A stretch of DNA of 64,000 nucleotides from a virus. The translations under genes were made by a program, and so were the position numbers. Within the stretch, counting starts at the first letter, position 1; every line of letters starts with the position of its first letter. The DNA is taken from positions 1 through 64,000 of IMG/VR virus record IMGVR_UViG_3300023179_000080; one strand, written 5' to 3'. The notes beneath the pieces were generated by a model, which was not told the origin of the DNA, made no database searches, and saw only the letters and a program-made list of their open reading frames with translations. Shown one piece after another: positions 1,513 to 48,956 of this stretch.

Positions 1513-1542
1513 ACTCTACCCCGCCCCGGGGCAACTTTGCAC
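1513..1542 (-). promoter_or_regulatory. Array promoter, leaderless type
   Basis: GTGCAAAGT, 15 nt, TAGAGT, 6 nt, ATG at 1506 (minus strand). No Shine-Dalgarno fits between. Confidence 0.85.
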
Positions 1543-1545
1543 AGT

Positions 1546-1776
1546 TCAGCAAGGATTATTTCGGTACCACTCGATGAGGCGGAGGATCTCCCCCACCTCA
1601 CTGTCGTCGCAGTCCCGGTAGGACCGGCCCAGGCGGGCCTTCAGCCGCTCCCAGATGTGGGCATGGGGGTTGCGCTTCTTCAGGAACTTGCACGGGGGCA
1701 GCTTGCCCTGCAGGTGGTCCCCCGCCTCCTTCTGCGCGGCACGGACCCTCGCGATGTTCTCGGGTGAGAGTGCCAT
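1546..1776 (-). CDS. Hypothetical protein (76 aa)
   Basis: Begins M-A-L-S-P-E-N-I-A-R; the rest is charged and probably helical ('RLIEWYRNNP' at the end), with one Cys-containing segment 'KLPPCKFLKKRNPHAHIWER'. The ATG at 1776 is preferred over the GTG two codons upstream because GGGAGGGG lies 8 nt before it. It follows the RadA-like gene after 22 nt, so the two are probably co-transcribed. Confidence 0.7.
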   Translation of the reverse strand: MALSPENIARVRAAQKEAGDHLQGKLPPCKFLKKRNPHAHIWERLKARLGRSYRDCDDSEVGEILRLIEWYRNNPC

Positions 1777-1798
1777 GTTCACTTCCCCTCCCGCCCTC

Positions 1799-2560
1799 TC
1801 ACGACGCCCCGCCGAAGGAGCCCTTCTCGTACAGACCCTGGCGGTTGAGGCCGAGGACGTAGGAGCGCCCCGAGCAGCCGAAGCGGTTCTTGGTGACCTC
1901 GAAGATGCGCTCCCCGTAGGTCTCGCTCTTCTTCTCCTCGTCGATGTAGAGCTGACCGCGGACGTCGACCGCGTGGAGGATGGTCTGCTTGCCGGCGAAG
2001 TCGCCGCCCTTCGTCACCTGGCCGATGAAGCACACGATGCCGTAGTTGGACTTGGCCCAGTCGGTGAGCATCTCGGTCGCGCGGACCGGGGTCATCGAGT
2101 TGGTCGCACCGCCGTACTTGCCGTCGTCCAGGGTCTGGAGGGAGTCCTGGAGGATGAACACCTGCTTGCCGGGGTTCCCCTTGCGGAGCCAGTCGGCGTG
2201 GCTCAGGAGGTCGGTCACGACCGTGTCCTGGCCCACGTTGAAGCCGGCCTTGAGGCCGAGGCGCTCCGTCACCATCTTGACCTGGTAGAGGGACTCCTCA
2301 CCCGTGTTGTAGAGGCACACGTGGCCCGCCTTCGTGATGGCGTCCGCCAGCTGGAGGAGCATCGTGGTCTTGCCGGCGCCGGGGGTACCGGTGAGCATCA
2401 TCACGCTCGAGGGCACCATGCCCTCGCCGCCGATCGCGTCGTCGAACCAGGAGATGCCCACCTTCTTGCGGTCGCGCAGGGCGGCCGGCACCGTGAGTTC
2501 GTTGATGTTGGTGCCGCGCTTCAGACCCTTGATACCGACGTTGAGGTTCATCTTGCTCAT
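1799..2560 (-). CDS. RadA/RecA-like ATPase, core domain only
   Basis: 253 aa. Walker A is 'GTPGAGKTT' (about 64-72); 'QVFILQDSLQTL' is the likely Walker B strand; 'KNRFG' near residue 220 is the signature that separates RadA/Sms from RecA. RadA processes recombination intermediates. Bacterial RadA is about 450 aa, with an N-terminal zinc finger and a C-terminal Lon-like domain; both are absent here, so this is the ATPase core only. Start ATG 2560 chosen from GGAG 10 nt upstream. Promoter and dyad lie upstream, with a leader of about 40 nt. Confidence 0.85.
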   Translation of the reverse strand: MSKMNLNVGIKGLKRGTNINELTVPAALRDRKKVGISWFDDAIGGEGMVPSSVMMLTGTPGAGKTTMLLQLADAITKAGHVCLYNTGEESLYQVKMVTERLGLKAGFNVGQDTVVTDLLSHADWLRKGNPGKQVFILQDSLQTLDDGKYGGATNSMTPVRATEMLTDWAKSNYGIVCFIGQVTKGGDFAGKQTILHAVDVRGQLYIDEEKKSETYGERIFEVTKNRFGCSGRSYVLGLNRQGLYEKGSFGGAS

Positions 2561-2607
2561 TCCTTGTGTTCTCCGTGAGGGGCGGCTCCTTGCCACCTTG
2601 TAAGATC

Positions 2608-2637
2608 ATCATACCACGGCTCCGTGGCGCTTTGCAC
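2608..2637 (-). promoter_or_regulatory. Array promoter with leader (RadA-like gene)
   Basis: GTGCAAAGC, 15 nt, TATGAT on the minus strand. Unlike most of the array the start codon is about 47 nt downstream of the hexamer and is preceded by a Shine-Dalgarno. Confidence 0.8.
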
Positions 2638-2649
2638 AGCTTTTCGCTG

Positions 2650-2777: not shown

Positions 2778-3179
2778 TCAGTCGCCCGAGTCGCAGCGAG
2801 TGACGCACTCGTAGACGTAGTAGGAGAACTTGTGGAGCGGGTATGGGTTGCCGTTGTACGGGTTCACCGCCGGCCGACCGGTGGGCTTGCCAGTATCGGT
2901 GTCGATCTCAATGGCCTCGACCTCATCAGCGCCCGAGGGGTCCTGAACCTCGACGAGCGGGATCTTGCGGCCATCGGCGAGGACCTGGGCGGACGAGAAC
3001 TCCTGACCGACCCCGACCAGCCGCGCTGTACGGAGCGCCGTGATGGTCTCAGGGGTGAGGGGAGACGTTGACGTCACCTTGTAGGTCGACTCGTAGTAGC
3101 ACCGGCCCAGCTGGCGGCTGCCTGCGGGTTCGACGGTGAGGGTGGGACGGGGATTGCGCCAGATGATGTTGGTTGCCAT
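2778..3179 (-). CDS. Hypothetical protein (133 aa)
   Basis: Starts M-A-T-N-I-I-W-R; mixed alpha/beta composition with Tyr-rich segments ('RCYYESTYKV', 'HKFSYYVYECVTRC'). The C-terminal CVTRC could bind metal or form a disulfide. Function unknown. A longer in-frame start exists, but the ATG at 3179 lies exactly 6 nt after the TATACT of an array promoter and there is no ribosome-binding site, so the shorter form is chosen. Confidence 0.75.
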   Translation of the reverse strand: MATNIIWRNPRPTLTVEPAGSRQLGRCYYESTYKVTSTSPLTPETITALRTARLVGVGQEFSSAQVLADGRKIPLVEVQDPSGADEVEAIEIDTDTGKPTGRPAVNPYNGNPYPLHKFSYYVYECVTRCDSGD

Positions 3180-3185
3180 GGTTGT

Positions 3186-3215
3186 AGTATACTCCTTCGT
3201 GGTTGAACTTTGCAC
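3186..3215 (-). promoter_or_regulatory. Array promoter, leaderless type
   Basis: GTGCAAAGT, 15 nt, TATACT, 6 nt, ATG 3179 (minus strand). Confidence 0.9.
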
Positions 3216-3220: not shown

Positions 3221-3412
3221 TCAGAACTCAGATCCTGCAACACGCCGCAACTCGTGTAGGATCTGAGATAGTTCACCCACGGTCTCTCGCACGTAGTCCT
3301 GCTGACCCTGTGATACGCCGGGGCCGAGCGTGTCTGTCAGCTGCTCGACACGAGCATGAATCAGAGAACGAATCACGGCGATACCGCGGTTTGAGATGTT
3401 GATGTTCTTCAT
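3221..3412 (-). CDS. Small helical protein (63 aa)
   Basis: M-K-N-I-N-I-S-N-R-G followed by a predicted helix pair ('VEQLTDTLG', 'VRETVGELSQILHELRRV'). Possibly a coiled-coil or dimerising regulator; no family recognised. Its promoter sets the start exactly. Confidence 0.7.
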   Translation of the reverse strand: MKNINISNRGIAVIRSLIHARVEQLTDTLGPGVSQGQQDYVRETVGELSQILHELRRVAGSEF

Positions 3413-3418
3413 GGTCTC

Positions 3419-3448
3419 AGTATACCACTTTCACTCGTGACTTTGCAC
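3419..3448 (-). promoter_or_regulatory. Array promoter, leaderless type
   Basis: GTGCAAAGT, 15 nt, TATACT, 6 nt, ATG 3412 (minus strand). Confidence 0.9.
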
Positions 3449-3773: not shown

Positions 3774-3832
3774 GATGTTGTCTCCTTGATCCTTACAGTT
3801 CTACTGTACCACTTCGTTGGTGAACTTTGCAC
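3774..3832 (-). promoter_or_regulatory. Array promoter with shared SD leader
   Basis: GTGCAAAGT (3832-3824), 15 nt, TACAGT (3808-3803), then a leader with GTAAGGATCAAGGAGACAA before ATG 3773. The leader is repeated at 4106-4140 and 4943-4977. Confidence 0.85.
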
Positions 3833-4105: not shown

Positions 4106-4164
4106 GACCTTGTCTCCTTGATCCTTACAGTTCCACTGTACCACTTCGTTGGTGAACTTTGCAC
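4106..4164 (-). promoter_or_regulatory. Array promoter with shared SD leader
   Basis: GTGCAAAGT (4164-4156), 15 nt, TACAGT (4140-4135), then the conserved GTAAGGATCAAGGAGACAA leader before ATG 4105. Confidence 0.88.
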
Positions 4165-4406: not shown

Positions 4407-4436
4407 GTGCAAAGTCCACCTTGAAAAGGGTATAGT
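4407..4436 (+). promoter_or_regulatory. Array promoter, leaderless type
   Basis: GTGCAAAGT, 15 nt, TATAGT, 6 nt, ATG 4443. Confidence 0.92.
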
Positions 4437-4442
4437 AGAACC

Positions 4443-4628
4443 ATGGAAGCCACTCGCACCTCACGAACCTTCGTCCGCAACGGTGACCTCGGCGTCGACG
4501 TCCACATGACCCTCGAGGAAGCCAAACGCATCCGTGCGGCCCTGTCGGACCTGGACGGGGAAGACCTGGGCGCTTATGGTGGAATCCTCGAGGTCCTGCG
4601 GAAGGCCATTCCCCAACAATGGGGTTGA
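4443..4628 (+). CDS. Hypothetical protein (61 aa)
   Basis: First plus-strand gene of the array. Short N-terminal strands, then helices ('LEEAKRIRAALSDLDGEDLG', 'ILEVLRKAIPQQ'). No family recognised. The start is fixed by the promoter: the ATG is the predicted first transcribed base. Confidence 0.75.
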   Translation: MEATRTSRTFVRNGDLGVDVHMTLEEAKRIRAALSDLDGEDLGAYGGILEVLRKAIPQQWG

Positions 4629-4633: not shown

Positions 4634-4663
4634 GTGCAAAGTTCAACAGCGAAAGGGTATACT
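4634..4663 (+). promoter_or_regulatory. Array promoter, leaderless type
   Basis: GTGCAAAGT, 15 nt, TATACT, 6 nt, ATG 4670. Confidence 0.92.
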
Positions 4664-4669
4664 GGAATC

Positions 4670-4912
4670 ATGGACAACATCAAGACTCTCGACGGCTCAC
4701 TCTTTTACTGGTCGGGTCAGGTCGGCACGGCCGACGCCTCGACCCTCGGGTTCGGCCCCGGCGTGTGGCCGCGGGTGATCGCGGTGCGCAGCCCCAAGAC
4801 GGGCAACACGGTCACCTTCGTCAACCAGGGTGTGCGCCTGCTCGAAGACAGCATGCTGTACGCCTCACAGAACCTCGCGACCCCGGTGGTCCTCGTCGTC
4901 GCGAACGACTGA
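4670..4912 (+). CDS. Hypothetical beta-rich protein (80 aa)
   Basis: Alternating hydrophobic pattern throughout ('SLFYWSGQVG', 'PRVIAVRSPKTGNTVTFVNQ', 'VVLVVAND'), so probably an all-beta domain. No known family. A longer in-frame ORF starts upstream but would run through the promoter; the ATG at 4670 has the standard 6-nt spacing. Confidence 0.75.
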   Translation: MDNIKTLDGSLFYWSGQVGTADASTLGFGPGVWPRVIAVRSPKTGNTVTFVNQGVRLLEDSMLYASQNLATPVVLVVAND

Positions 4913-4918: not shown

Positions 4919-4977
4919 GTGCAAAGTCGCCGACGAACGTGGTACAGTGGAACTGTAAGGATCAAGGAGACAAAGTC
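4919..4977 (+). promoter_or_regulatory. Array promoter with shared SD leader
   Basis: GTGCAAAGT (4919-4927), 15 nt, TACAGT (4943-4948), leader GTAAGGATCAAGGAGACAA, ATG 4978. Third copy of the leader seen at 3774 and 4106. Confidence 0.88.
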
Positions 4978-5249: not shown

Positions 5250-5480
5250 GTGACCGAGAGAACATCCTACGAGAAGCTCGACCTCGCCTGGTCTGCACTG
5301 ATCAGCACCCACTCCGCGGGTATGTTCCGCAGCCTCGACGACCCCGAGCGCTATGCACGTCTCGCTGCGAGCATGTGGGCGGCCGAGGCGGACCTGTGCA
5401 TCGTCCATGGCTGGACCCTGCAAGAGTTTACAAACGAAATGCGTCGACGCCGTGCAAAGTCGACCACGAAAGAGGTATAG
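5250..5480 (+). CDS. Hypothetical helical protein (76 aa)
   Basis: GTG start chosen because it lies 6 nt after the -10 position of the promoter; protein begins M-T-E-R-T-S-Y-E-K-L. Mostly helical ('LDDPERYARLAASMWAAEAD'). Its last ten codons run through the promoter of the next gene, and its stop TAG is inside that promoter's TATAGT. No family recognised. Confidence 0.7.
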   Translation: MTERTSYEKLDLAWSALISTHSAGMFRSLDDPERYARLAASMWAAEADLCIVHGWTLQEFTNEMRRRRAKSTTKEV

Positions 5481-5481
5481 T
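5452..5481 (+). promoter_or_regulatory. Array promoter inside upstream gene
   Basis: GTGCAAAGT, 15 nt, TATAGT, 6 nt, ATG 5488. The whole element is coding sequence of the preceding gene. Confidence 0.9.
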
Positions 5482-5487
5482 GTAATC

Positions 5488-5946
5488 ATGAAGAGCAAAT
5501 CCGCCCGAATCACCCCCTCCGCGAAGCCCTGTGACGTGGAGTACCGCCTCAATCGGCTCAACGCAGTCATCGCGGAAGCGTCGAAGTTCCTCGCGTCGAT
5601 CGACAAGTCGGTCTACCCGGACTGGGAAGATGCGGCCAACGCGCTCAACGCGACGATGGACACAGTCGGCGCCTGGAAGGCCCCGAGCAAGAAGGCCTAC
5701 CGCAAGTCGGACCTCGAGAAGGTCGCGGCTGCAGCGGCTCGGGAGGCCGCCCGTGAAGAGGCACGGGTGAAGCGTGACACGGAACGTGTGGAACGTCTCA
5801 ACACCAAGGCTGCCAAGCTCGCCGCGAAGGCTGAGCCCAAGCCCACGATCGACATGGCTGCGGGTTCGGCGATCGAAAAGGCGATCGCTGCGGCGAAGGC
5901 CCGCAAGGCTGCCCGCATCACCGACCTCGAGGAGGCTGCCCAGTGA
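5488..5946 (+). CDS. Ala/Lys-rich helical protein
   Basis: 152 aa. N-terminal half helical; residues about 78-112 are a charged Ala/Glu/Arg coiled coil; the end carries 'SAIEKAIAAAKARKAARI'. Nearly the same module ('SAIERALAAAKARKA') opens the protein at 9662, so the motif is shared between two otherwise different proteins. A nucleic-acid or phage-protein binding role is possible but unproven. The next gene overlaps by 4 bp (GTGA). Confidence 0.8.
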   Translation: MKSKSARITPSAKPCDVEYRLNRLNAVIAEASKFLASIDKSVYPDWEDAANALNATMDTVGAWKAPSKKAYRKSDLEKVAAAAAREAAREEARVKRDTERVERLNTKAAKLAAKAEPKPTIDMAAGSAIEKAIAAAKARKAARITDLEEAAQ

Positions 5947-6183: not shown

Positions 6184-6213
6184 GTGCAAAGTCCCTCTCC
6201 CACATGGTACACT
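6184..6213 (+). promoter_or_regulatory. Array promoter with leader (MoxR gene)
   Basis: GTGCAAAGT, 15 nt, TACACT; the start codon is 32 nt further, preceded by AACGAGGAACAAGAAC, so this transcript has a leader. Confidence 0.82.
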
Positions 6214-6245
6214 GAACTCATCTTCCAAACGAGGAACAAGAACAC

Positions 6246-8441: not shown

Positions 8442-8471
8442 GTGCAAAGTGACCCTCCCTCCTGGTAGAGT
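8442..8471 (+). promoter_or_regulatory. Array promoter, leaderless type
   Basis: GTGCAAAGT, 15 nt, TAGAGT, 6 nt, ATG 8478. Confidence 0.9.
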
Positions 8472-8477
8472 GTTCTC

Positions 8478-8774
8478 ATGGATAGCAATCCCTCCCCCAT
8501 CCTGGAAGAAGTGTTTGGCCCGTTCGCCGTCCCGAACTCGGACGAGGTGATCCCGGTCCGCGGCCTCGAGGTCCACCTCGGCAACGACTGGATTCCAATC
8601 ACGGCGGACGTGTGGCGGTCCTGGACCGGCCGGCGCCGGATCTGGGGGATCGAGCACCACGGGCCGGTGTACGCGGTGGGGACTCAAGACGAGAGCACCC
8701 CCTGGACCGGCGTACGGGAGTGCACATGTGCCACCTGCCAGGCCCACGTGGAGCCCACCCTAAAACCCAACTGA
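8478..8774 (+). CDS. Hypothetical protein (98 aa)
   Basis: Starts M-D-S-N-P-S-P-I-L-E; Trp-rich middle ('NDWIPITADVWRSWTGRRR') and 'ECTCATCQAH' near the C-terminus, which may bind zinc together with a nearby His. Function unknown. The promoter fixes the start. Confidence 0.75.
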   Translation: MDSNPSPILEEVFGPFAVPNSDEVIPVRGLEVHLGNDWIPITADVWRSWTGRRRIWGIEHHGPVYAVGTQDESTPWTGVRECTCATCQAHVEPTLKPN

Positions 8775-8778: not shown

Positions 8779-8808
8779 GTGTAAAGTTCCCACCCGATGT
8801 GGTAGGGT
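8779..8808 (+). promoter_or_regulatory. Array promoter, leaderless type
   Basis: GTGTAAAGT, 15 nt, TAGGGT, 6 nt, ATG 8815. Confidence 0.9.
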
Positions 8809-8814
8809 AGTATC

Positions 8815-9201
8815 ATGAGACGACGACGCAAGGTGGTCACCTGGAACACACCCGAGCCGCAGCGGGAGCTGCGACCTCACCCGTTCCAGGACGAGAACAT
8901 CGTCCCCCCGAGCTTCGACCTCGACGCCCTGGTGCCGGGATCCCTGTGGCTCCTCACGGCGGCGATGAACACGTTTAAGCTGCCTCCGGGCTATGTCACC
9001 CACTCCCACCCGTACTTCACACCGGGGTACTCGTGGGGCAATCCCCCGCCCTTCGCGAAGGGCACACTGGTGGTCTACATGGGCACCACCCGGGTGGAGG
9101 AGTCGAACAATGGTCGCATCCTCCGTGTCAACCGCCACCTGTTCCTCGTCGGCGGAGCGCCGCACATGTTGACGAACCTCAACTACGTCGAGGCGGTGTA
9201 A
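8815..9201 (+). CDS. Hypothetical protein (128 aa)
   Basis: Basic start (M-R-R-R-R-K), Pro-rich stretch, then 'GSLWLLTAAMNTF' and 'KGTLVVYMGTTRV', a pattern seen in the small beta-barrel proteins of this genome. Possibly SH3-like; function unknown. Its stop TAA lies inside the 9-mer GTGTAAAGT of the next promoter. Confidence 0.75.
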   Translation: MRRRRKVVTWNTPEPQRELRPHPFQDENIVPPSFDLDALVPGSLWLLTAAMNTFKLPPGYVTHSHPYFTPGYSWGNPPPFAKGTLVVYMGTTRVEESNNGRILRVNRHLFLVGGAPHMLTNLNYVEAV

Positions 9202-9225
9202 AGTGCCGCCCCGGCGTGGTACAGT
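9196..9225 (+). promoter_or_regulatory. Array promoter, 9-nt spacer to ATG
   Basis: GTGTAAAGT, 15 nt, TACAGT, 9 nt, ATG 9235. Overlaps the end of the previous gene. Confidence 0.82.
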
Positions 9226-9234
9226 GAGATCACG

Positions 9235-9357: not shown

Positions 9358-9578
9358 TGACAGTTATTGACGTATCCCCCATCAAGCTCGGCTCCTACTG
9401 GCAGTCGCGTACCCGCCGAGGAGAGCAGCGTGTGGTGGTCGAGGACGTGGTCGACGGCCCGGTCAACATCGTGTCGTACAGGGTCGTGGACTCCCACGGA
9501 GAGTGGCGTGCCCTCACGCCTCAAGAGGAGTTCGTACGACGGTTCGAGGAGATCCTCTCTGCAGCAGAGGGTGTGTAA
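9357..9578 (+). CDS. Hypothetical SH3-like protein (73 aa)
   Basis: 'IKLGSYWQSRTRRGEQRVVV' followed by 'VNIVSYRVVDSHGEWRALT' suggests a small beta barrel, then a short C-terminal helix. Coupled to the 40-aa ORF. The stop TAA is inside the next promoter's GTGTAAAGT. Confidence 0.72.
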   Translation: MTVIDVSPIKLGSYWQSRTRRGEQRVVVEDVVDGPVNIVSYRVVDSHGEWRALTPQEEFVRRFEEILSAAEGV

Positions 9579-9602
9579 AGTTCCCACCCTACGATGTAGG
9601 GT
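9573..9602 (+). promoter_or_regulatory. Array promoter with leader
   Basis: GTGTAAAGT, 15 nt, TAGGGT. The start codon is 59 nt downstream; the leader contains repeated GGAAACGGA before ATG 9662. Confidence 0.8.
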
Positions 9603-9661
9603 GAGAGTGTAAGTAAACGCCGCCTCCCGCGGCCCAATGGAAACGGAAACGGAGAATCAAC

Positions 9662-12581: not shown

Positions 12582-12611
12582 GTGCAAACCCGGGAGGGTC
12601 GGGTGTAGAGT
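12582..12611 (+). promoter_or_regulatory. Array promoter, leaderless type
   Basis: GTGCAAACC, 15 nt, TAGAGT, 6 nt, ATG 12618. Confidence 0.87.
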
Positions 12612-12617
12612 GTATCC

Positions 12618-12905
12618 ATGCTGGACCCCTCGACGATCAGGGACAAGGAAGTTCACCGTGCGGCTCCCACCTATGCCGCCCTCACCGCCGCCCTCCGGGA
12701 GTTGCGGGACACGGGTCGATTCTACTACGAGTCGACGGGCGAGGGGCAAGTGTTGGAGGCGACTGCTCAACTCGCCCTCGACGAGCTGGAGGTTGCGATG
12801 GCGGAGATGCCCGCCCTCCGCCGGTTCCTCGGGGTGATGCTGATCGCACGGGAGTCGCGCCTCGCTGCCGACCGCCGCCGGGAGAAGAGCAAGAGCCGGC
12901 GATGA
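12618..12905 (+). CDS. Helical hypothetical protein (95 aa)
   Basis: Almost entirely helical: 'YAALTAALRELRDTGRFYYE', 'LALDELEVAMAEMPALRRFL', then an Arg/Lys-rich end. No family recognised. Overlaps the next ORF by ATGA. Confidence 0.75.
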   Translation: MLDPSTIRDKEVHRAAPTYAALTAALRELRDTGRFYYESTGEGQVLEATAQLALDELEVAMAEMPALRRFLGVMLIARESRLAADRRREKSKSRR

Positions 12906-14086: not shown

Positions 14087-14116
14087 GTGCAAAGGTGACC
14101 ACCCTCGTAGTAGGGT
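14087..14116 (+). promoter_or_regulatory. Array promoter, leaderless type
   Basis: GTGCAAAGG, 15 nt, TAGGGT, 6 nt, ATG 14123. Confidence 0.87.
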
Positions 14117-14122
14117 GGACCC

Positions 14123-14377
14123 ATGATGGACAGCAGACGACCCCTGGGCTTCTACGATCGATACAGTGTCACCGCACCCTCCACCTTCCCCCGTGGCTGC
14201 CGGGTACGGGTCACGGGTGGGGCATTTGAAGGTGAGGAGGGCATCGTCCTCGACGATGACCCCACACCCCGCCTGCCGGGCAACCCGGCAGCGGTCATCT
14301 CTCTCCTCAGTGAGGCGTGGCTGGATGAGCCCCTCCGCTTCAACCACCGGGACCTCGCCTGGGCGCCCGCTCCCTGA
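14123..14377 (+). CDS. KOW/SH3-like small protein (84 aa)
   Basis: 'RGCRVRVTGGAFEGEEGIVL' is KOW-like: VxVxxGxFxGxxGxV. KOW domains bind RNA or ribosomal proteins, but the short phage version has no assigned role. ATG 14123 is followed directly by a second ATG; the first fits the promoter spacing. Confidence 0.75.
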   Translation: MMDSRRPLGFYDRYSVTAPSTFPRGCRVRVTGGAFEGEEGIVLDDDPTPRLPGNPAAVISLLSEAWLDEPLRFNHRDLAWAPAP

Positions 14378-14939: not shown

Positions 14940-14969
14940 ATAAAAAGTTTCGTGGGATCGACGTATAGT
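14940..14969 (+). promoter_or_regulatory. Array promoter, degenerate 9-mer
   Basis: ATAAAAAGT in the 9-mer position, 15 nt, TATAGT, 6 nt, ATG 14976. The -10 and spacing are canonical. Confidence 0.78.
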
Positions 14970-14975
14970 TATTCC

Positions 14976-15413
14976 ATGCTGTGGGATCGAGTGGTTCGAT
15001 ATGTCACTGGAGCGCCCGTACCGGGCGAGCTCTTGTACATGCGAGACTTCGGTGCTAGTTGTCCGTTGTGGAAGACGGGAGAGGGACATGGCGTGATGGG
15101 TCGGGTCCCATCGGGTTCGCTGCTGGTCGCCTTGGGGGATGTGACAGATACCCACATCAGAGTCCTAGCACCCTCCGGAACCGTCGGGTGGATCCACCGC
15201 AACTATACCGTGGGCCACCCCCCACCCGGGCTAATCGCCTTTACCGTCAAGGCCCTCGCCCAGCCCGCCCGCAGGGTCATGATCCTCGCCGGAGCTTTCC
15301 TGTTCGGCGCTGAGATCTTGGGGGTCTCCTCCCCCCGTGACATTGCCACCCCGCCGAGCCACCCACCCCGGGCCCCTGAGGAGACACCCCCAGGTCGAGC
15401 AGGTGGGCAGTAG
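14976..15413 (+). CDS. SH3-like protein with membrane segment
   Basis: 145 aa. Residues about 41-80 hold 'VPSGSLLVALGD' and 'HIRVLAPSGTVGWIHRNY', the signature of an SH3-like paralogue family in this genome (also 17091, 21264, 30641, 32561). A hydrophobic span ('VMILAGAFLFGAEILGV') and a Pro-rich tail follow. The tail overlaps the minus-strand ORF at 15231-15578 by 183 nt. Confidence 0.72.
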   Translation: MLWDRVVRYVTGAPVPGELLYMRDFGASCPLWKTGEGHGVMGRVPSGSLLVALGDVTDTHIRVLAPSGTVGWIHRNYTVGHPPPGLIAFTVKALAQPARRVMILAGAFLFGAEILGVSSPRDIATPPSHPPRAPEETPPGRAGGQ

Positions 15414-15633: not shown

Positions 15634-15843
15634 ATGAATAACACCGCTCCCAGCCCATTCGAGGTAGTAGATCGTGAGCTGCTTGAGGCTGCCCGCAAAT
15701 ATACGGCCGCGGTCCGTGCCGGTGGCGGAGCCGACGCTCTGCCCCGCCTGATGCACGAGTTCCACGCCATCCTAACACGCCACGGTTGGACCCATGAAGA
15801 TTGGGCACGAAAGACTGCGAAGCCGGGTCCAACCGATAAGTGA
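15634..15843 (+). CDS. Hypothetical helical protein (69 aa)
   Basis: M-N-N-T-A-P-S-P-F-E; helices 'VDRELLEAARKYTAAVRAG' and 'LMHEFHAILTRHGWTHEDWA'. Unknown function. TACGTAT lies about 8 nt upstream; no clear ribosome-binding site. Its stop TGA lies within the next promoter's GTGAAAAGT. Confidence 0.65.
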   Translation: MNNTAPSPFEVVDRELLEAARKYTAAVRAGGGADALPRLMHEFHAILTRHGWTHEDWARKTAKPGPTDK

Positions 15844-15869
15844 AAAGTTAGGGACCGCGGTTGTATACT
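15840..15869 (+). promoter_or_regulatory. Array promoter, leaderless type
   Basis: GTGAAAAGT, 15 nt, TATACT, 6 nt, ATG 15876. Confidence 0.88.
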
Positions 15870-15875
15870 ATATCC

Positions 15876-16061
15876 ATGAGGGATGGTTACACCCAAGTCC
15901 ACAATCAAGACCTCGAGATCTTGAAGAAACTTCTCGACGAAAAGATCAGCAAGATTGAGACACTCCTGGGGGAGGCTAGTCGGGTCGGCGGGGCTCACGA
16001 TTACTATTCGATGCGCCACAGTGAGCTCGTCGAGATGCGCCGGCGGCTAGTGACGCAATGA
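15876..16061 (+). CDS. Coiled-coil protein (61 aa)
   Basis: Heptad pattern in 'DLEILKKLLDEKISKIETLL' and again in 'SELVEMRRRLVTQ'. Probably dimeric; role unknown. Overlaps the next gene by ATGA, beginning a run of coupled genes to 17781. Confidence 0.72.
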   Translation: MRDGYTQVHNQDLEILKKLLDEKISKIETLLGEASRVGGAHDYYSMRHSELVEMRRRLVTQ

Positions 16062-17435: not shown

Positions 17436-17781
17436 GGGTAACAAGGTCAAGAAGGGCGACGTCTACCTCATGTCGACCGGTTCCTCGGTCTTCTACATCC
17501 GCTCCCAACAGGAGCTGGATGCCCTGTACGAGGACGACCGCCGCCGGGGCGACACGCTTGACTCAGCGGGTGAACCCCGTATCCACAACCGCCAAGGTCG
17601 GATCCACTTCACAGAACCCACCACGGTCATGGTCGTCGGCCTGACCGGTGCACAGTGGGGCTCTTGGTACAACAAGCCCGTCGGACTGGTGCGAGCAGTT
17701 GTCACTTCCGGTCCCTCCCTGGGAAGGGAGGTCACGGTGACGAAGGCGGCATTGTTGGCTTCCGTGCAAAGTCACGGCTGA
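17425..17781 (+). CDS. Hypothetical SH3-like protein (118 aa)
   Basis: M-K-S-K-G-N-K-V-K-K-G-D-V-Y-L; segments 'SSVFYIRSQQELDALYEDD' and 'TTVMVVGLTGAQWG' fit the small beta-barrel family. Start 17425 overlaps the preceding gene; an earlier in-frame ATG at 17410 is possible. The last codons and stop lie inside the next promoter's spacer. Confidence 0.68.
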   Translation: MKSKGNKVKKGDVYLMSTGSSVFYIRSQQELDALYEDDRRRGDTLDSAGEPRIHNRQGRIHFTEPTTVMVVGLTGAQWGSWYNKPVGLVRAVVTSGPSLGREVTVTKAALLASVQSHG

Positions 17782-17793
17782 AAGTGGTATAGT
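17764..17793 (+). promoter_or_regulatory. Array promoter inside upstream gene
   Basis: GTGCAAAGT, 15 nt, TATAGT, 6 nt, ATG 17800. Confidence 0.92.
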
Positions 17794-17799
17794 AAAACC

Positions 17800-17988: not shown

Positions 17989-18018
17989 GTGCAAAGTTCA
18001 ACCGCAAAGTGGTATAGT
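17989..18018 (+). promoter_or_regulatory. Array promoter, leaderless type
   Basis: GTGCAAAGT, 15 nt, TATAGT, 6 nt, ATG 18025. Confidence 0.92.
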
Positions 18019-18024
18019 TAATCC

Positions 18025-39781: not shown

Positions 39782-39872
39782 GTTTGTAAATATCATCGAG
39801 TAATCCAACAAATAAAATTCTGTAATTGGATAGTGCAAAGGTCTCTAAACTTGTTTTACTCTTAAAGAGACA

Positions 39873-40988: not shown

Positions 40989-41324
40989 ATGAAGAAGAAC
41001 AACAAGAAGAACTCCAATCGCTCTTACAACGTAACTTTCGATCTACCAGACATTGTCGACATGGAAACTCTCTCCTACGCGGGTGATGACGAGTTGAGTC
41101 GAAGGCTCGCACACCTCAACGGTGAAAAAGAGCAAGTCCAGAACGAAGGGTACGACGCCAAGCTCTGGGAAGTCGAGATCGCGTACGTGCAGAGAGAGTT
41201 GAAGATCAGGAACGCTCGTCGGGTTGCTCATGATGAATACCTCAAGGCGAATCCCGAGCCCAACTACTACGAGCTTACTTACGTTCCAAACTATGACGAC
41301 GGACCTGCTGATGCCTTCAACTGA
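40989..41324 (+). CDS. Hypothetical protein (111 aa)
   Basis: [13 protein letters not shown]. Central charged helix ('[20 protein letters not shown]', '[20 protein letters not shown]'). Unknown. Precedes the sigma factor gene. Confidence 0.7.
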
Positions 41325-41334
41325 AGAGGCCGTT

Positions 41335-42159
41335 ATGCGACCAACGAAGGTTAGCACAGTTTCTCAACAGTCACCCGCACAAGTCGACACGATCAGCACA
41401 TACTTGAAAGAGCTGAAAGTGTATCCACAGCTGAAACACCCTGAAGTTGTTAGCCTCTTTCAGGCCTATGAAGCAGGGGGAACTGAGGGTGATAAGGCAA
41501 GAAAGAAGCTGGTTGAGTCGAACCTCCGACTTGTGATCTCGATCGCAAAAAAGCAGAAGGGGCACAACATCCCTCTAGAAGATCTAATCCAGGAGGGCAA
41601 CCTGGGACTCCTCAAGGCTGTCGAGCGTTTCGACTGGAAGAAGGGGTTTAGGTTCTCCACTTACGCGACGTGGTGGATCAAGCAGGCCATCAGTCAACAC
41701 GTTCTGAAGCGGAAACGAATGATCCGTCTCCCAGCCCACGCTGCAGGAATCCAGCGTAAGCTGATGCAGGCTTCAAAGGAGTTCCGCGATACCAACGGTT
41801 CAGATCCGACTCAAGACGAGCTTCTGAAGCTTGTCGACGCGTCTGAAACTGTCGTCAAGGCAACGATCGCGTCCAGCAACAACGTTGTTTCTCTTAGCCA
41901 AACTGTCACTTCTGATCCAGATAGCGGTACTTTGGGTGACAGGCTTGAAGACATTGATCACCGGAATGATCCATTTTATAATGTTTCTTCTAAGGAATTG
42001 CTTGGTATTGTCAAGTACGTGCTATCCACTCTTACTGAGAAAGAAGCTGCAATTTTGAAGTTGAGATTCGGAATTTTTGATGAAGACATTGATCGATCAC
42101 AATACATGTTGACGGCTGAAGACACTGCTCAGCTTGAAGCGGGCACGTTGCATGATTGA
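41335..42159 (+). CDS. Sigma-70-type factor lacking region 4.2
   Basis: 274 aa. Region 1.2/2.1 '[20 protein letters not shown]', region 2.2-2.4 '[20 protein letters not shown]' and '[20 protein letters not shown]', region 3 '[20 protein letters not shown]', region 4.1 '[20 protein letters not shown]'. The -35-reading helix-turn-helix of region 4.2 is missing; the protein ends in an acidic tail. It should bind core polymerase and read -10 DNA. Start 41335 chosen from AAGAGG 5 nt upstream; ATG 41311 is possible. Confidence 0.92.
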
Positions 42160-42397
42160 AAGTATCACGTATTTTTTGCTGTTGATCATCCTGACTGGAT
42201 GCAACATTTCTGTTTATCTGATGTGCAGAAAAATGTTGCGCTTGCTCGAAGATGCGATGCTGCACACAGATAGCGCAAAGCACAGTATCGAAACTATGCT
42301 CGGGCATGATCCCACAAGCGGTCTCAACACTAGATTGAATGAATTGCAGAAAATGAAATTTTCTTACATGCGCACAAATTCGGGAGGACAACAATGA
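42152..42397 (+). CDS. Membrane/lipoprotein-like protein (81 aa)
   Basis: M-I-E-S-I-T-Y-F; '[18 protein letters not shown]' could be a membrane span or a lipobox-like signal, then a charged helix. Lies between the sigma gene and the HTH gene and overlaps both. Unknown. Confidence 0.62.
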
Positions 42398-42672
42398 ACC
42401 AGCAGAAATCAACAGCATACGCCACAGTCTCAGATGAGGGTGTCAACTATCGTGAGATTGCAAGCATGATGACTGAAATCGGCTTCAAGATGAACCACTC
42501 TTCTGCACGGAACTACGTGCTTCGAGTAATGAAGAAATTTGCAGAAGCGATCAACAAGGAGTGGAATCTTGAGATACATCCAACAAAACTTGATAAGATA
42601 GTTAAGACGCCACAATTCCAGTCTGCTATCTGTGACATCTTGCAGACCCTGGACGCACATGAGAAAAGATAG
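42394..42672 (+). CDS. Small HTH protein, sigma region 4-like
   Basis: 92 aa. 'VNYREIASMMTEIGFKMNHS' followed by 'SARNYVLRVMKKFAEAI' has the spacing of a sigma-70 region 4 helix-turn-helix (helix, EIA, turn, recognition helix with RN, then K-K-F). GGAGG 7 nt before the ATG. It could supply, in trans, the -35 contact missing from the sigma factor 235 nt upstream, as gp33 complements gp55 in T4. Inference. Confidence 0.72.
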   Translation: MNQQKSTAYATVSDEGVNYREIASMMTEIGFKMNHSSARNYVLRVMKKFAEAINKEWNLEIHPTKLDKIVKTPQFQSAICDILQTLDAHEKR

Positions 42673-42678: not shown

Positions 42679-43065
42679 ATGAGACTACAAAAGAAAAGTT
42701 TGTCAAGGGTCACCCTCTCAGACCTGCTACGCCGAAAACGCTCAAATCTCCAGAGATTCCTGAAAGAGTCAGGGATCGTAACCTACGAGCTACTTGTTTC
42801 GAGGTGCGCTTCTATGGGTGTTGTTCCTCCCAGCGAGAAGGATTTTCTGGACGCAAGAGGCAATCCAATCATCCACGACGTCTCTTCTCCCACTGAGGGT
42901 ATTGTTGTGCTCGAACCACCCCCAGTGTCCACAGAAGAAAAAGTTGAGATGGTGTCGACGCAAGACGTGCATGGTTCAAGTGAACCACTAGAAGCAGAGC
43001 CAGCAACCGTTTCTTTCAACGGCAAGAAGAAGCAGAAGAAGAATTTGGCAGAAAATTCTCCATGA
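42679..43065 (+). CDS. Hypothetical basic-acidic protein (128 aa)
   Basis: Basic N-terminus ('RLQKKSLSRVTLSDLLRRKR', about 2-21), then 'ESGIVTYELLVSRCASMGVV', a possible winged-helix-like segment, and an acidic/Pro-rich tail ending in Lys-rich 'GKKKQKKN'. Function unknown. 6 nt after the HTH gene, so probably co-expressed. Confidence 0.7.
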   Translation: MRLQKKSLSRVTLSDLLRRKRSNLQRFLKESGIVTYELLVSRCASMGVVPPSEKDFLDARGNPIIHDVSSPTEGIVVLEPPPVSTEEKVEMVSTQDVHGSSEPLEAEPATVSFNGKKKQKKNLAENSP

Positions 43066-43753: not shown

Positions 43754-43782
43754 GTGAAAAGTGAAGACCGACGTGGTACAGT
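43754..43782 (+). promoter_or_regulatory. Array promoter, 14-nt spacer
   Basis: GTGAAAAGT, 14 nt, TACAGT, 6 nt, ATG 43789. One nt shorter than the rest. Confidence 0.83.
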
Positions 43783-43788
43783 ATAACC

Positions 43789-44007
43789 ATGAGGTACGCA
43801 ACGACCACGTCGGTCTTCCTAACGATAATGTTCCTTGTTGACGGTGTACGGGCAGGCGATGCTCAATGTGCTACCGTCAAGGACCATGACCTTCGCATGG
43901 CATGCTATGCCTTCTCCGAAGGTCGGATCTCGTGGTGCGAGTTCATCAAGGACCACGACGCTCGCGTGATGTGTCGGATTCGAGTCGACAGCAAGAAGGC
44001 TCACTGA
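43789..44007 (+). CDS. Small secreted Cys-repeat protein (72 aa)
   Basis: Signal peptide ('TTTSVFLTIMFLVDGVRAGD'), then two short repeats: 'CATVKDHDLRMAC' and 'CEFIKDHDARVMC'. Each could form a disulfide in the periplasm. Function unknown. Overlaps the next gene by one base. Confidence 0.72.
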   Translation: MRYATTTSVFLTIMFLVDGVRAGDAQCATVKDHDLRMACYAFSEGRISWCEFIKDHDARVMCRIRVDSKKAH

Positions 44008-45313: not shown

Positions 45314-45343
45314 GTGCAAAGTAACCCATCATGGGTATAGGGT
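45314..45343 (+). promoter_or_regulatory. Array promoter, leaderless type (ligase)
   Basis: GTGCAAAGT, 15 nt, TAGGGT, 6 nt, ATG 45350. A nearby TATAGG is an alternative hexamer but breaks the spacing. Confidence 0.85.
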
Positions 45344-45349
45344 GACAAT

Positions 45350-46687
45350 ATGGAAAGCGTGATTGAGATCCTTGAGGCACTTGAATCTGACAACTCCCGT
45401 AACTTCAAGGAGGAGTTGCTCTCAGACAATCGAAGCAATGATCTACTGAAGAGAGTCTTCGTCGCCGCGGGAGATCCGTACATCAACTTCTACGTCTCCA
45501 AGTTCAAGATGCCGCCGGCGGGCGGCTCTGACGACGACGATAAAGTTGTGAGCGACTTTATCGACAACCTGTATACGCAATTGTCGACTCGGTCTGTGAC
45601 GGGCAATGCTGCAAAGGCATTGGTGAACGACTTGTTTGCCAAGATGACCAACAGTCAGCAGAAGTGGTGTCTCCGCATTCTTCTACGCAACCTGCGTGTG
45701 GGTGCATCGGAGTCACTGGTCGAGAAGACCTGGCCTGGTGCGATCGCCAAGTTCTCAGTCCAGCTAGCAGAATCACTCTCTGCTCGTCACGAGGCGGGCA
45801 AGGGCATCGTCTTGACTGACGACATCGAGTATCCCGTTCGAGTCGAACCCAAGCTTGACGGTCTCCGGTGCATCGCGATCAAGCACAACGGCGCGGTCAC
45901 GATGTTCACACGCAGCGGGTCGGCGATCGAGACTCTTCCCACGATCAAGGCAGCACTCGAGTCTGCTCCGTGGGACGATTTTGTTCTTGATTCGGAAGTT
46001 ATGGGCTCTGACTGGAATGAGTCAGCTTCCGTTGTGATGTCGCACAAAACTGCGAAGAATGACGGCAACATGAAGATGCACGTCTTTGATGCCATGGCCT
46101 TCGACGAGTGGCATGATCAGGAGTCGACCTCAGAATTGACGGAACGGGTCGAACTAGTGAAGGAGTTGGTGTCCACAGTGGACGACGAGCATGTTGTCGC
46201 CGTGGAAGGCAAGACCGTCATCAATCAGGCGGAACTCATGACCTTCTACTCGAAGACGATGGAGAAGGGCTACGAGGGGATCATGATCAAGGACGTCAAG
46301 TCTCCATACGTCTTCAAGCGATCTGACGCAGTGCTTAAGCTCAAGCCTGTGAACACCTACGAAGGCGTGATCGTGGGTAATTACGAGGCCACTCGTGGAT
46401 CGAAGCGTGAGGGGTTGTGGGGCGGTTTCCAGGTCCTGATGCCCAACGGCGTCGTGACCCGAGTGGGCGGAGGCTTCTCTGACAAGTTGAAGGCAGAGAT
46501 CGACATGGATCCAGAGGCGTGGATCGGCAAGATCGTGGAGATGGAAGGTCAGCCCGATCCCCTCACAGCCGACGGTCTCACTGCCGATGGCCGCGTCAGA
46601 TTTCCTGTGTTTGTTAGGGTTCGTGATTCCCGTGATGTTGACAGCAAGGTGATCGATGCCTACAAGAACTACTCGGCTAATAACTAA
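45350..46687 (+). CDS. ATP-dependent DNA ligase
   Basis: 445 aa. Motif I 'EPKLDGLRCIAI' with nucleophile K168; motif III 'WDDFVLDSEVMG'; motif IV 'KGYEGIMIKD'; motif V 'VLKLKPVNTYEGVIVG'. An N-terminal helical domain precedes the core, as in T4-type ligases, and an OB domain follows. Seals nicks in phage DNA replication and repair using ATP. Overlaps the next gene by 32 nt. Confidence 0.95.
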   Translation: MESVIEILEALESDNSRNFKEELLSDNRSNDLLKRVFVAAGDPYINFYVSKFKMPPAGGSDDDDKVVSDFIDNLYTQLSTRSVTGNAAKALVNDLFAKMTNSQQKWCLRILLRNLRVGASESLVEKTWPGAIAKFSVQLAESLSARHEAGKGIVLTDDIEYPVRVEPKLDGLRCIAIKHNGAVTMFTRSGSAIETLPTIKAALESAPWDDFVLDSEVMGSDWNESASVVMSHKTAKNDGNMKMHVFDAMAFDEWHDQESTSELTERVELVKELVSTVDDEHVVAVEGKTVINQAELMTFYSKTMEKGYEGIMIKDVKSPYVFKRSDAVLKLKPVNTYEGVIVGNYEATRGSKREGLWGGFQVLMPNGVVTRVGGGFSDKLKAEIDMDPEAWIGKIVEMEGQPDPLTADGLTADGRVRFPVFVRVRDSRDVDSKVIDAYKNYSANN

Positions 46688-47468
46688 CGCAGCAGTGCTC
46701 ACGTTCATCACTGTCACGGCCGCTACTGAGGCGGCCAGTGAAGTCGATTCATGCCTGTTGGGAATGCGACGGGTGCGAGGCAGTGCGCTTGATCAAAGCG
46801 AGTACATCGGATACCTACAGGACACGACCTGCACTTCGTGGATAAACACCGAATTCCCTGCCCGTTGTGCACATTTCAATCGTGATGCTTGGCTCAAGAT
46901 CACAGCCAAGCTCAATCGTAAATCGATGGACTTCTGTATGGACGTGTATGAGTGGCCCAATCGTCAGGGAGTCGACCCGCTTGTGTACGTCGATTACTAT
47001 GATGCTGTGAATGCATGCACAGCGCTCGGCAAACGTCTGTGCACTGAGGACGAGTGGACGTTTGCCTGCGAAGGTGAGGAGGGACGTCCCTATCCTTATG
47101 GATACGATCGCGACGCGGCTGCATGCAACATTGACCGTGGCTGGATCCAGCCCGATGTCACGAAGCTTGTGGGCAACGGATCGTCGACCAAGACTCAAGC
47201 AGAACTGCGACGTCTGTGGCAGGGTGAACCCAGCGGGGCTCGAGCAACTTGTGTGTCCCCATTTGGGATCCAAGACATGACGGGCAACGTCGACGAGATA
47301 ACTGAAAATTCGCGAGGAACAGGTTACAAGTCAATCCTGAAGGGTGGCTACTGGTCAGTCGTTCGCAACAGGTGTCGGCCGTCAACACGTGTGCACAACG
47401 AGTGGTTCCGCTACTACCAGCTCGGATTCAGGTGCTGTTCTGCCCCATTAGGACACCATTCTACTTAA
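46656..47468 (+). CDS. Secreted FGE/sulfatase-modifying-type protein
   Basis: 270 aa. Signal peptide ('LITNAAVLTFITVTAATEAA'). FGE fold markers: 'MDFCMDVYEWPNRQG', 'YYDAVNACTALGKRLCTEDE', 'WTFACEGEEG', 'FGIQDMTGNVDEITE', 'ILKGGYWS' and 'FRYYQLGFRCCSA'. Formylglycine-generating enzymes oxidise Cys in sulfatases; many family members are structural or binding domains instead. It lies downstream of the ligase but is exported. Unexpected in a phage and Myxococcota-like in style. Confidence 0.85.
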   Translation: MPTRTTRLITNAAVLTFITVTAATEAASEVDSCLLGMRRVRGSALDQSEYIGYLQDTTCTSWINTEFPARCAHFNRDAWLKITAKLNRKSMDFCMDVYEWPNRQGVDPLVYVDYYDAVNACTALGKRLCTEDEWTFACEGEEGRPYPYGYDRDAAACNIDRGWIQPDVTKLVGNGSSTKTQAELRRLWQGEPSGARATCVSPFGIQDMTGNVDEITENSRGTGYKSILKGGYWSVVRNRCRPSTRVHNEWFRYYQLGFRCCSAPLGHHST

Positions 47469-47541
47469 TCGGGTTATTCTGAGGCCATCTGAGGGTCTTC
47501 GGGGGCCAACAAGAATGGGGTCGACGGACTATAAGGTGCTG

Positions 47542-47584
47542 CTGTGCAGCATTTGTGCACAGCAAATTGTGATCGACAATTTGT
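47542..47584 (+). terminator. Paired hairpins after FGE-like gene
   Basis: CTGTGC/GCACAG (47542-47560) and CAAATTGT/ACAATTTG (47562-47582), then GATTGTATTTATTTT: probable transcription stop before the next promoter. Confidence 0.6.
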
Positions 47585-47615
47585 CGTAGACGATTGTATT
47601 TATTTTGACGACACC

Positions 47616-47645
47616 GTGCAAACTCACGGTCCTCCGTGGTAGGGT
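47616..47645 (+). promoter_or_regulatory. Array promoter, leaderless type
   Basis: GTGCAAACT, 15 nt, TAGGGT, 6 nt, ATG 47652. Rightmost copy found. Confidence 0.87.
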
Positions 47646-47651
47646 ATACTC

Positions 47652-48956
47652 ATGATGACACCTTGTGACACCGAGTTCAATCTCGACCGGCACCTCATCT
47701 CGTTCCTACAGGACAACCCGTTCTTTGCGGAACTGAGCCGCCACATCCACAAGTCGCCCACCAAGTCGATCCCGACGGCGGCAGTTGCGTTCAACGAGAA
47801 GACCGACGAGCTCACCCTCTGGTGGAATCCCGAGTTCTTCGGCAAGCTGTCCCAGTGGGAAGTCCGTGGCGTGCTCACCCACGAATTCTACCACCTCGTG
47901 TTCGGCCACCTGTACGGCCGCCGGCGCAATCCGCCCAAGCTGTGGAACGTGGCGACCGACCTGGCCATCAACTCGATCATCATGGGATCTGCCAAGAACG
48001 GCAGCCGCCTCGATGGCGATCGCCCGCTTCCCGAGTTCTGCCTCATGCCCGGCGTGATGCCGAAGCATCCGGAAGGCCGCGATTACACCGACGAGGAGAA
48101 GTCGGCGATGCCGCTCGCGGCGGTGATCGCGAAGCTCCCGACCATGCAGGCGTCGGAGTGGTACTTCGACAAGATCAAGCAGGAAATGCAGGACCAGCCC
48201 GACAACGGCATGGGCCAAGGCGAGGGCAGCCTCGACTCGATGGACGACCACAACGGTTGGGACGAAGTCCCGGACGAACTCCGCGAGTACGTGGAAGGCA
48301 AGGTCAAGTCGATCGTCGAAAAAGCGGCGAAGCACGCCGACTCGCAGGCGAACGGCTGGGGTAACATCCCGGCGGACATGGTCGACGCAATCCGCAAGTC
48401 GGTGTCGTCGGTCATCAACTGGCGCAATGTGCTACGCCAGTTCGTCGGTTCGCTGGTCCGCGGCGGCCGTAGCACCTCGATCAAACGCATCAACAAGCGT
48501 TACCCCTACATCCACCCGGGAGTGAAGCGTGGCTACGAGGCGAAGCTCCTCATTGCGATCGACCAGTCGGGCTCGGTGAGCAACGAGATGCTCGCAGAGT
48601 TCTTCGCGGAGCTCGGGTCCCTCACCAAGAAGGTGACGATCGACGTCCTTCCGTTCGACTGCGAGGCCCATGACAAGGACATCTACACGTGGCGCAAGGG
48701 TGCGAACATCCCGGGCAAGCGAGTCCGCGGCGGCGGCACGGACTTCAACGCTCCCACTCGACTCGCCAACGATCCCAAGAATCGAGGCCGGTGGGACGGA
48801 TTTTTGTGTCTCACGGATGGGGAAGCTTCTGCGCCTATTCCTAGCCGAATTAAGCGGGGGTGGGTCCTTGGCAAAGGTTGTAAACTGCTCTTCAAGACGG
48901 ACGAGATTCAGGTCCACATGACGGACCAGAAGGCCGCAGAGGGTGCCTGGCGCTGA
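47652..48956 (+). CDS. VWA-domain HExxH metallopeptidase-like protein
   Basis: 434 aa. HEFYH (77-81, in 'VLTHEFYHLVFGH') is a zinc-peptidase motif; 'LIAIDQSGSVSNEMLAEFF' (about 301-318) is a VWA MIDAS (D-x-S-x-S). This combination (DUF2201 type) typically pairs with a MoxR ATPase, here probably the one at 6246. Such pairs are thought to remodel metal- or protein-complexes; phage role unknown. Two ATGs at the start; the first fits the promoter. Confidence 0.88.
   Translation: MMTPCDTEFNLDRHLISFLQDNPFFAELSRHIHKSPTKSIPTAAVAFNEKTDELTLWWNPEFFGKLSQWEVRGVLTHEFYHLVFGHLYGRRRNPPKLWNVATDLAINSIIMGSAKNGSRLDGDRPLPEFCLMPGVMPKHPEGRDYTDEEKSAMPLAAVIAKLPTMQASEWYFDKIKQEMQDQPDNGMGQGEGSLDSMDDHNGWDEVPDELREYVEGKVKSIVEKAAKHADSQANGWGNIPADMVDAIRKSVSSVINWRNVLRQFVGSLVRGGRSTSIKRINKRYPYIHPGVKRGYEAKLLIAIDQSGSVSNEMLAEFFAELGSLTKKVTIDVLPFDCEAHDKDIYTWRKGANIPGKRVRGGGTDFNAPTRLANDPKNRGRWDGFLCLTDGEASAPIPSRIKRGWVLGKGCKLLFKTDEIQVHMTDQKAAEGAWR

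Follow-up and report, generated by a model that had tools for sequence, protein, structure and literature searches.

The stretch of DNA analysed here (the window) covers positions 1 to 64,000 of the 74,283-base IMG/VR virus record IMGVR_UViG_3300023179_000080. It carries an array of near-identical putative promoters, each consisting of a 9-bp box (GTGCAAAGT), a 15-nt spacer, a -10 hexamer of the form TANNNT and a gap of 6 nt, after which an ATG stands at the predicted transcription start. The sites are concentrated between 1.5 and 29 kb, where the genes are small and mostly unknown and the RNA ligase gene rtcB stands at 28 kb. Further sites precede a DNA ligase gene and an HNH endonuclease gene at 45-48 kb, and none of the leaderless sites belongs to the tail and baseplate genes past 49 kb. 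The window also encodes a three-gene cassette composed of a truncated sigma-70-family protein and proteins of 92 and 128 aa. Taken together, the features described below point to a phage-specific promoter class whose mRNAs would begin at the start codon.

Composition of the array

The exact pattern GTGNAAAGT-N15-TANNNT-N6-RTG was found 20 times in the window and never in 100 dinucleotide-preserving shuffles. One of the 20 matches (53659) fronts a tRNA-Leu gene and not a start codon. With a relaxed box, 27 leaderless sites were obtained, 24 of which are strict (spacer of 15, gap of 6 and at most two box mismatches); the other three vary in the box (ATG 14976, three mismatches), the gap (ATG 24064, 5 nt) or the spacer (ATG 43789, 14 nt). 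A sequence-only reading of the window had described about 27 genes sharing the box, the 15-nt and 6-nt distances and an ATG or GTG start. The number and the geometry stand, whereas the three variants deviate and GTG starts are rare among the array genes. All 21 start positions that it listed are right, 12618 carrying two box mismatches.

The same reading predicted leaderless mRNAs for the array, which holds for the 27 sites; it missed nine further copies of the promoter in the window that lack a start codon at +1 and precede leadered genes, a tRNA or, once, no assigned gene. Three of them (3832 and 4164 on the minus strand, 4919 on the plus strand) are followed by the leader GTAAGGATCAAGGAGACAA with a Shine-Dalgarno sequence, four (6184, 9196, 9573 and 39833, all on the plus strand) by other short leaders, and the copy at 2637 on the minus strand is the one without an assigned gene. 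The lack of Shine-Dalgarno sequences at the leaderless genes is borne out in that the mRNA would contain nothing 5' of the ATG.

The guanine-cytosine (GC) content is higher near the sites than elsewhere in 9 of 9 records tested, for instance 0.58 vs 0.49 in the window record and 0.52 vs 0.41 in the 278-kb record G015. A GC-rich block coincides with the array within otherwise more AT-rich genomes (window 1-30000; G005, G015, G009 and G001). Intrinsic terminators between array genes were not in excess over shuffles at 1-20000.

Rigidity of the geometry and the start-site signature

Twelve related records were compared, the 11 relatives having been found via the motif; its presence there is therefore not independent evidence, and its geometry is. 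Among 926 TANNNT-N6-ATG anchors in these records, a box with at most one mismatch lies at offset 15 in 234, at offset 14 in 5 and at offset 16 in 0. When the ATG is moved to a gap of 5 or 7, only 6 and 9 sites are obtained, respectively. The spacers are distinct in 200 of the 234 sites, so recent duplication does not account for most of them. Among the 234 sites the box hardly varies, partly from the one-mismatch limit, and the anchor definition itself sets the T, A and T of the -10; the middle of the -10 is loose, and G is found at -14 in 90% of the sites.

Position -1 is C in 90% and T in 9% of the leaderless sites (pyrimidine in 99%), against 36% C and 23% T for the other ATGs of the same phages. 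In addition, the predicted +1 is a purine in 41 of the 43 box promoters that have no ATG at or beside +1. Since the -1 and +1 bases follow ordinary initiation preferences, +1 would fall on the A of the ATG.

Authenticity of the start codons

The 234 ATGs at +1 open frames with a median of 76.5 codons, 93.6% of them having at least 40 codons. The medians are 18 and 19 codons for TANNNT-N6-ATG without the box and for all other ATGs, with about 30% reaching at least 40 codons. This difference rules out that the motif is as common elsewhere as at gene starts. Alignments of the window proteins with their orthologs begin at residue 1, and the promoter is conserved at ~45-75% protein identity, as seen for the DNA ligase (45350), the HNH endonuclease (47652) and the genes at 24523, 4443, 17800 and 29449. 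In some orthologs an AGGAG- or GGAGG-type leader replaces the promoter arrangement, namely for 18211 (G011, G015), 29449 (G009, G005) and 47652 (one G033 copy). The same gene being leaderless here and Shine-Dalgarno-leadered in other phages, gene starts appear to have switched between both modes. In the relative G009, tRNA-Lys is preceded by the same promoter, and the occurrence of the promoter before leadered genes and tRNAs indicates one promoter class and not a translation signal.

Taken together, the geometry, the pyrimidine-purine (YR) signature, the purine at +1 in the leadered sisters, the tRNA copies, the real open reading frames (ORFs) and the orthologs make a promoter with a predicted leaderless start the best reading of these sites. 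It is very probable that the mRNAs would be leaderless, with RNA 5' ends at the start codon. The coordinates are collected in Table 1.

Table 1. Predicted promoters of the array and genes of the sigma cassette in the window ("leaderless" denotes an ATG at the predicted transcription start)
Feature	Positions	Strand	Remarks
Leaderless box promoter	1504..1542	-	ATG 1506 (30 aa ORF)
Leaderless box promoter	3177..3215	-	ATG 3179 (133 aa)
Leaderless box promoter	3410..3448	-	ATG 3412 (63 aa)
Leadered copy	3797..3832	-	TACAGT, leader GTAAGGATCAAGGAGACAA, ATG 3773
Leadered copy	4129..4164	-	Shine-Dalgarno
Leaderless box promoter	4407..4445	+	ATG 4443 (61 aa); leaderless orthologs G011, G015, G001, G007
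Leaderless box promoter	4634..4672	+	ATG 4670 (80 aa)
Leadered copy	4919..4954	+	Shine-Dalgarno, ATG 4978
Leaderless box promoter	5452..5490	+	ATG 5488 (152 aa)
Copy with short leader	6184..6219	+	After +1: ATC...ACATG
Leaderless box promoter	8442..8480	+	ATG 8478 (98 aa)
Leaderless box promoter	8779..8817	+	ATG 8815 (128 aa)
Copy with 3-nt leader	9196..9231	+	ATG at +4
Leadered copy	9573..9608	+	+1 = G
Leaderless box promoter	12582..12620	+	2 box mismatches, ATG 12618 (95 aa)
Leaderless box promoter	14087..14125	+	1 mismatch, ATG 14123 (84 aa)
Possible leaderless promoter	14940..14978	+	3 box mismatches, ATG 14976
Leaderless box promoter	15840..15878	+	ATG 15876 (61 aa)
Leaderless box promoter	17764..17802	+	ATG 17800 (53 aa); leaderless orthologs G007, G003, G009
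Leaderless box promoter	17989..18027	+	ATG 18025 (55 aa)
Leaderless box promoter	18175..18213	+	ATG 18211 (140 aa)
Leaderless box promoter	18638..18676	+	ATG 18674 (124 aa)
Leaderless box promoter	19052..19090	+	ATG 19088 (52 aa)
Variant, 5-nt gap	24029..24066	+	ATG 24064 (67 aa)
Leaderless box promoter	24274..24312	+	ATG 24310 (58 aa)
Leaderless box promoter	24487..24525	+	ATG 24523 (244 aa); 7 leaderless orthologs
Leaderless box promoter	25738..25776	+	ATG 25774 (77 aa)
Leaderless box promoter	27842..27880	+	2 mismatches, ATG 27878 (66 aa)
Leaderless box promoter	28083..28121	+	ATG 28119 (RtcB RNA ligase, 405 aa)
Leaderless box promoter	29413..29451	+	1 mismatch, ATG 29449 (112 aa)
Weak copy, short leader	39833..39868	+	5' of deaminase-like ORF 39873
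Truncated sigma-70-family protein	41293..42159	+	Start codon uncertain, frame open from 41203
92-aa cassette protein	42394..42672	+	Invariant NHSSARN; possible DNA-binding partner
128-aa cassette protein	42679..43065	+	C-terminal SSPxEG motif
Variant, 14-nt spacer	43754..43791	+	ATG 43789 (72 aa)
Leaderless box promoter	45314..45352	+	ATG 45350 (ATP-dependent DNA ligase)
Leaderless box promoter	47616..47654	+	ATG 47652 (HNH endonuclease family)
Copy before tRNA-Leu	53659..53694	+	tRNA from 53697; ATG 53695 not a start codon

Two further observations concern the neighbouring genes. A TnpB/Cas12f1-like transposon nuclease (Pfam Cas12f1-like_TNB, 9e-21) lies inside the array region at 26038-27129 on the minus strand and has upstream an ATAnTTAT element (see below), not the box. 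A cREC_REC protein (cyclic-phosphate processing receiver domain, 1.7e-11) is encoded at 40211-40609 on the plus strand and, with the RtcB RNA ligase (28119-29336), provides RNA-repair-related genes in one phage.

The truncated sigma cassette and other transcription genes

The sigma protein of the cassette (41293-42159) matches Pfam Sigma70_r2 (1e-22) and Sigma70_r3 (9e-6), and its closest PDB matches are primary sigmas. Region 4.2 is missing: no full Sigma70_r4 was found, only its first 18 positions, below the cut-off. The protein stops ~30 residues past LKLRFG, shortly after region 4 begins, with the same end point in relatives. It matches phrog_351 at 6e-55 and is not in phrog_234, the T4 gp55 family. 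With the 92-aa family as query, 80 IMG/VR loci were retrieved; the three-gene cassette is complete in 78 of the 79 examined, the remaining one ending at a contig edge. The segment KMNHSSARN is invariant in 31 aligned sequences of the 92-aa family. Homology of the 92-aa protein to sigma region 4 was considered and is not claimed (AlphaFold predicted local distance difference test score, pLDDT, 85; best PDB E 2.6; no Pfam family). The 128-aa protein was likewise rejected as a gp33 homolog, its model being good only at ~residues 10-60, with no PDB match.

Large relatives encode a small Cys-rich sigma region 4.2 protein (Sigma70_r4 1e-8 to 1e-9, invariant TRMRICQIEK), which is present in 6 of 6 large cassette contigs examined. 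This 4.2-like protein is also found in many large records without the cassette or the box; it was therefore rejected as the sole box reader and kept as a candidate only. Neither it nor the 92-aa and 128-aa proteins had a match in 50,697 cultured-phage records. Proteins of this type, with little beyond region 4.2 and altered recognition residues (TRMRICQIE), are widespread in huge phages (L100:19419-19697, L149:6831-7109 and 200+ IMG/VR loci).

The record contains a second phage sigma outside the window, a gp55-like late sigma (phrog_234, 1.2e-5) at record positions 70303-71115 on the minus strand (L012:10303-11115). The T4 late element TATAAATA was not enriched, and was depleted in AT-rich records; an ATAnTTAT class was found instead. 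In G015, 33 of 60 ATAnTTAT copies lie within 80 nt of a start vs 2.5 expected. The element is enriched just 5' of genes in G015, G016, G005 and others, with many copies within 10 nt of the ATG, and it is a candidate for a late class of promoters, perhaps leaderless as well. With a distinct gp55-like sigma and the ATAnTTAT class, the truncated sigma would be left free for the box promoters.

The array and the cassette occur together. Eleven cassette contigs extend 20 kb or more upstream of the cassette, and every one of them has sites there on the same strand, 2-27 in each (G033 2, G032 3). The five cassette contigs with <14 kb upstream have none or one site. In most of the large records with the 4.2-like protein and without the cassette, no site or a single one was found; in G053 there are five, close to a contig end. 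The association is strong, not perfect; the contigs are fragments.

Distribution among huge phages

Phage contigs of up to 340 kb carry the array again, its geometry fixed and its box drifting (GTGCAAAGT, GTGCAAACC, GTGAAACCC). Further records were collected via the 4.2-like protein and not via the box, and two cassette carriers, G049 (340 kb) and G051 (309 kb), were among them. In G049 the arrangement is GTGAAACC[CT]-N15-TAGACT-N6-ATG, in G051 the box is mostly GTGCAAA[ACT][CT], and G016 holds both GTGCAAAGT and GTGCAAACC boxes. Permuted-core controls give 0 or 1 site in the records of 298-340 kb with a drifted box. From the same geometry with other boxes in G049, G051 and G016, the core of the box is taken as GTGnAA. 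The layout marks a wide clade of huge phages. A second box class of the GTGAAAANCCCACC type, with the same spacing and a leaderless ATG, was seen in G007:C1:200-13546 (L280), apart from the GTGCAAAGT array at 207-212 kb.

Contigs often break at or beside the array (G005, G034, G036, G038, G039 and G053), and hypervariability or repeats at the array may hide it in surveys. The box pattern was searched in 84,980 cellular genomes, where 23 stretches were found vs ~30 expected from base counts; several of these are phage contigs in bins of metagenome-assembled genomes (MAGs). An attempt to derive the host from MAG bins was given up because of inconsistent binning: the bins that hold array contigs are labelled Ca. 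Aquidulcis, Gammaproteobacteria and Proteobacteria. A marker of actinobacterial hosts, WhiB, was absent in 17 records.

Proposed mechanism and alternatives

We propose one phage-specific promoter class, in which a -35-type box with the core GTGnAA (GTGCAAAGT in the window phage) would lie at -36 to -28, followed by the rigid 15-nt spacer with G at -14, the TANNNT -10 at -12 to -7 and a six-base discriminator ending in a pyrimidine. Transcription would begin on the A of the start codon, and each promoter would give its own leaderless mRNA, mostly of small unknown genes in the GC-rich non-structural block and also of the DNA ligase, the HNH endonuclease and RtcB. Where no ATG stands at +1, a leadered mRNA or tRNA precursor would arise from the same promoter. 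Host core RNA polymerase would act with the truncated phage sigma, region 2 of which would read the -10; because this sigma lacks region 4.2, a separate small subunit is proposed to read the box. This explanation as a whole, combining a phage promoter class, leaderless starts and a phage sigma as reader, appears likely to us. The assignment of the factor that reads the box is tentative. It is conceivable, at a similar level of caution, that huge uncultured phages carry a divided initiation factor (a sigma-70 without the -35-reading region plus a box-reading subunit) for dozens of single-gene leaderless promoters, the box diverging while the 15/6 geometry stays fixed. Overall, a clade-wide system with a dedicated phage sigma is plausible from the sequences.

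The phage sigma as reader is favoured by the co-occurrence of cassette and array and by the poor fit of the box to TTGACA. Several observations weigh against this proposal. No known fold was matched by the 92-aa or the 128-aa protein, which makes either of them a putative box reader only. The 4.2-like protein was not found in the 74-kb window record, itself a fragment, and its occurrence in records without cassette or array means that it may serve late transcription. The cassette-bearing records with the most divergent sigmas, G062 and G055, have 1 and 0 sites. Moreover, the array precedes the sigma gene, as expected of early genes read by host sigma.

In a rival explanation, the sites are immediate-early promoters read by the host housekeeping sigma, the truncated sigma serves another class or has some other action, and leaderlessness comes from a host with many leaderless genes. 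The array genes are mostly small, GC-rich like host-takeover genes and located upstream of the cassette; leaderless genes of high-GC Actinobacteria have been reported to carry such a TANNNT with little information in its middle (PMC3160421), and GTGnAA at an 18-nt spacer matches TTGACA in 3 of 6 positions. However, 3/6 is also the best register that GTGCAAAGT attains against a housekeeping -35 near TTGACA at 16-18 nt, and this poor TTGACA shows much stronger conservation than the central -10 positions, at a near-invariant spacing. Of the array promoters, a sigma-70 consensus scan of 1-20000 picks up just those at 8779 and 15840, both at the minimum score, and cellular genomes show no enrichment of the pattern. 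We regard the host sigma as the less likely reader. Less probable still is a MotA-like activator, possibly the 92-aa protein, that binds the box in place of a -35 contact while host or truncated sigma reads the -10. T4 middle promoters have this layout, in which a sigma -10 is combined with a 9-bp box around -32 that takes the place of the -35 (PMC2988021), and the 92-aa protein with its invariant NHSSARN is inseparable from the truncated sigma; yet neither the fold nor the sequence of this protein matches MotA or any DNA-binding family, and the spacer is 15, not 12±1. That the motif is a translation or operator element, with transcripts beginning farther upstream, would fit the start codon being tied to 234 of 294 sites, but it is hardly credible given the copies before tRNA genes and before leadered genes with their own Shine-Dalgarno sequence, the -35/-10 spacing with its YR start signature, and conserved parts that are not ribosome-binding sequences.

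Significance

Leaderless initiation is usually studied singly; here it is apparently the rule for a whole viral gene block, in which a fixed promoter seems to weld the transcription start to the start codon. If confirmed, the system would provide a leaderless promoter that is natural and portable, a way to test why a phage bypasses Shine-Dalgarno initiation during takeover, and a sigma factor with -35 reading shifted to another polypeptide. The signature could also serve to recognise an uncultured phage clade, and the leaderless habit could hint at hosts.

Comparison with known systems

A search of the literature (open-licence papers) found no comparable array of leaderless promoters in a phage. 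The array resembles T4 middle promoters and the T4 gp55/gp33 system, yet it is without the tested defining features of either. In T4, ~60 middle promoters have a MotA box, TGCTTtA, 12±1 bp from a sigma-70 -10 and depend on AsiA/MotA sigma appropriation (PMC2988021). Both sets are dispersed and phage-specific, with a 9-10 bp box near -30 that replaces the -35, a sigma -10 that is kept and, as proposed for the array, the normal region 4 contact displaced. In contrast, the array has GTGnAAAGT at 15 bp and a start codon at +1, and the phage encodes its own truncated sigma; the box is near-invariant and the -10 loose, the reverse of T4, where changes in the box are tolerated and a good -10 is required. 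A general PHROGs scan of ~30 large or cassette ORFs of the record, which is a fragment, returned none named MotA or AsiA.

T4 gp55/gp33 has been described as a split sigma (PMC2988020), and it shares with the proposed system a sigma without region 4 and a separate small protein in the region-4 position. It differs in that the cassette sigma is RpoD-like (r2, r3, phrog_351) and a separate gp55-like protein is also present. T4 late promoters use a -10 element only, unlike the box promoters with their strong upstream element.

In Cluster K mycobacteriophages, a short conserved start-associated sequence precedes 13-19 phage start codons; this sequence, GGGATAGGAGCCC, is placed 3-9 bp ahead of the start and has a core of the ribosome-binding type (PMC3203893). 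It is not a -35/-10 promoter with the start at +1, and the window sites do not carry GGGATAGGAGCCC at 3-9 bp (PMC11373665).

Bacterial leaderless genes, common in Actinobacteria, have TANNNT ~10-12 bp before the start (PMC3160421), and a TANNNT ~12 bp before the start codon was found at the 27 window sites and at the 234 sites of the 12 records. The array is like these and the mycobacterial leaderless genes (PMC4633059) in having TANNNT at -12, ATG at +1 and a predicted mRNA without a Shine-Dalgarno sequence. It is set apart from them by a 9-bp -35 box that is near-invariant and phage-specific. We know of no such strict 9-bp -35 box for host leaderless genes.

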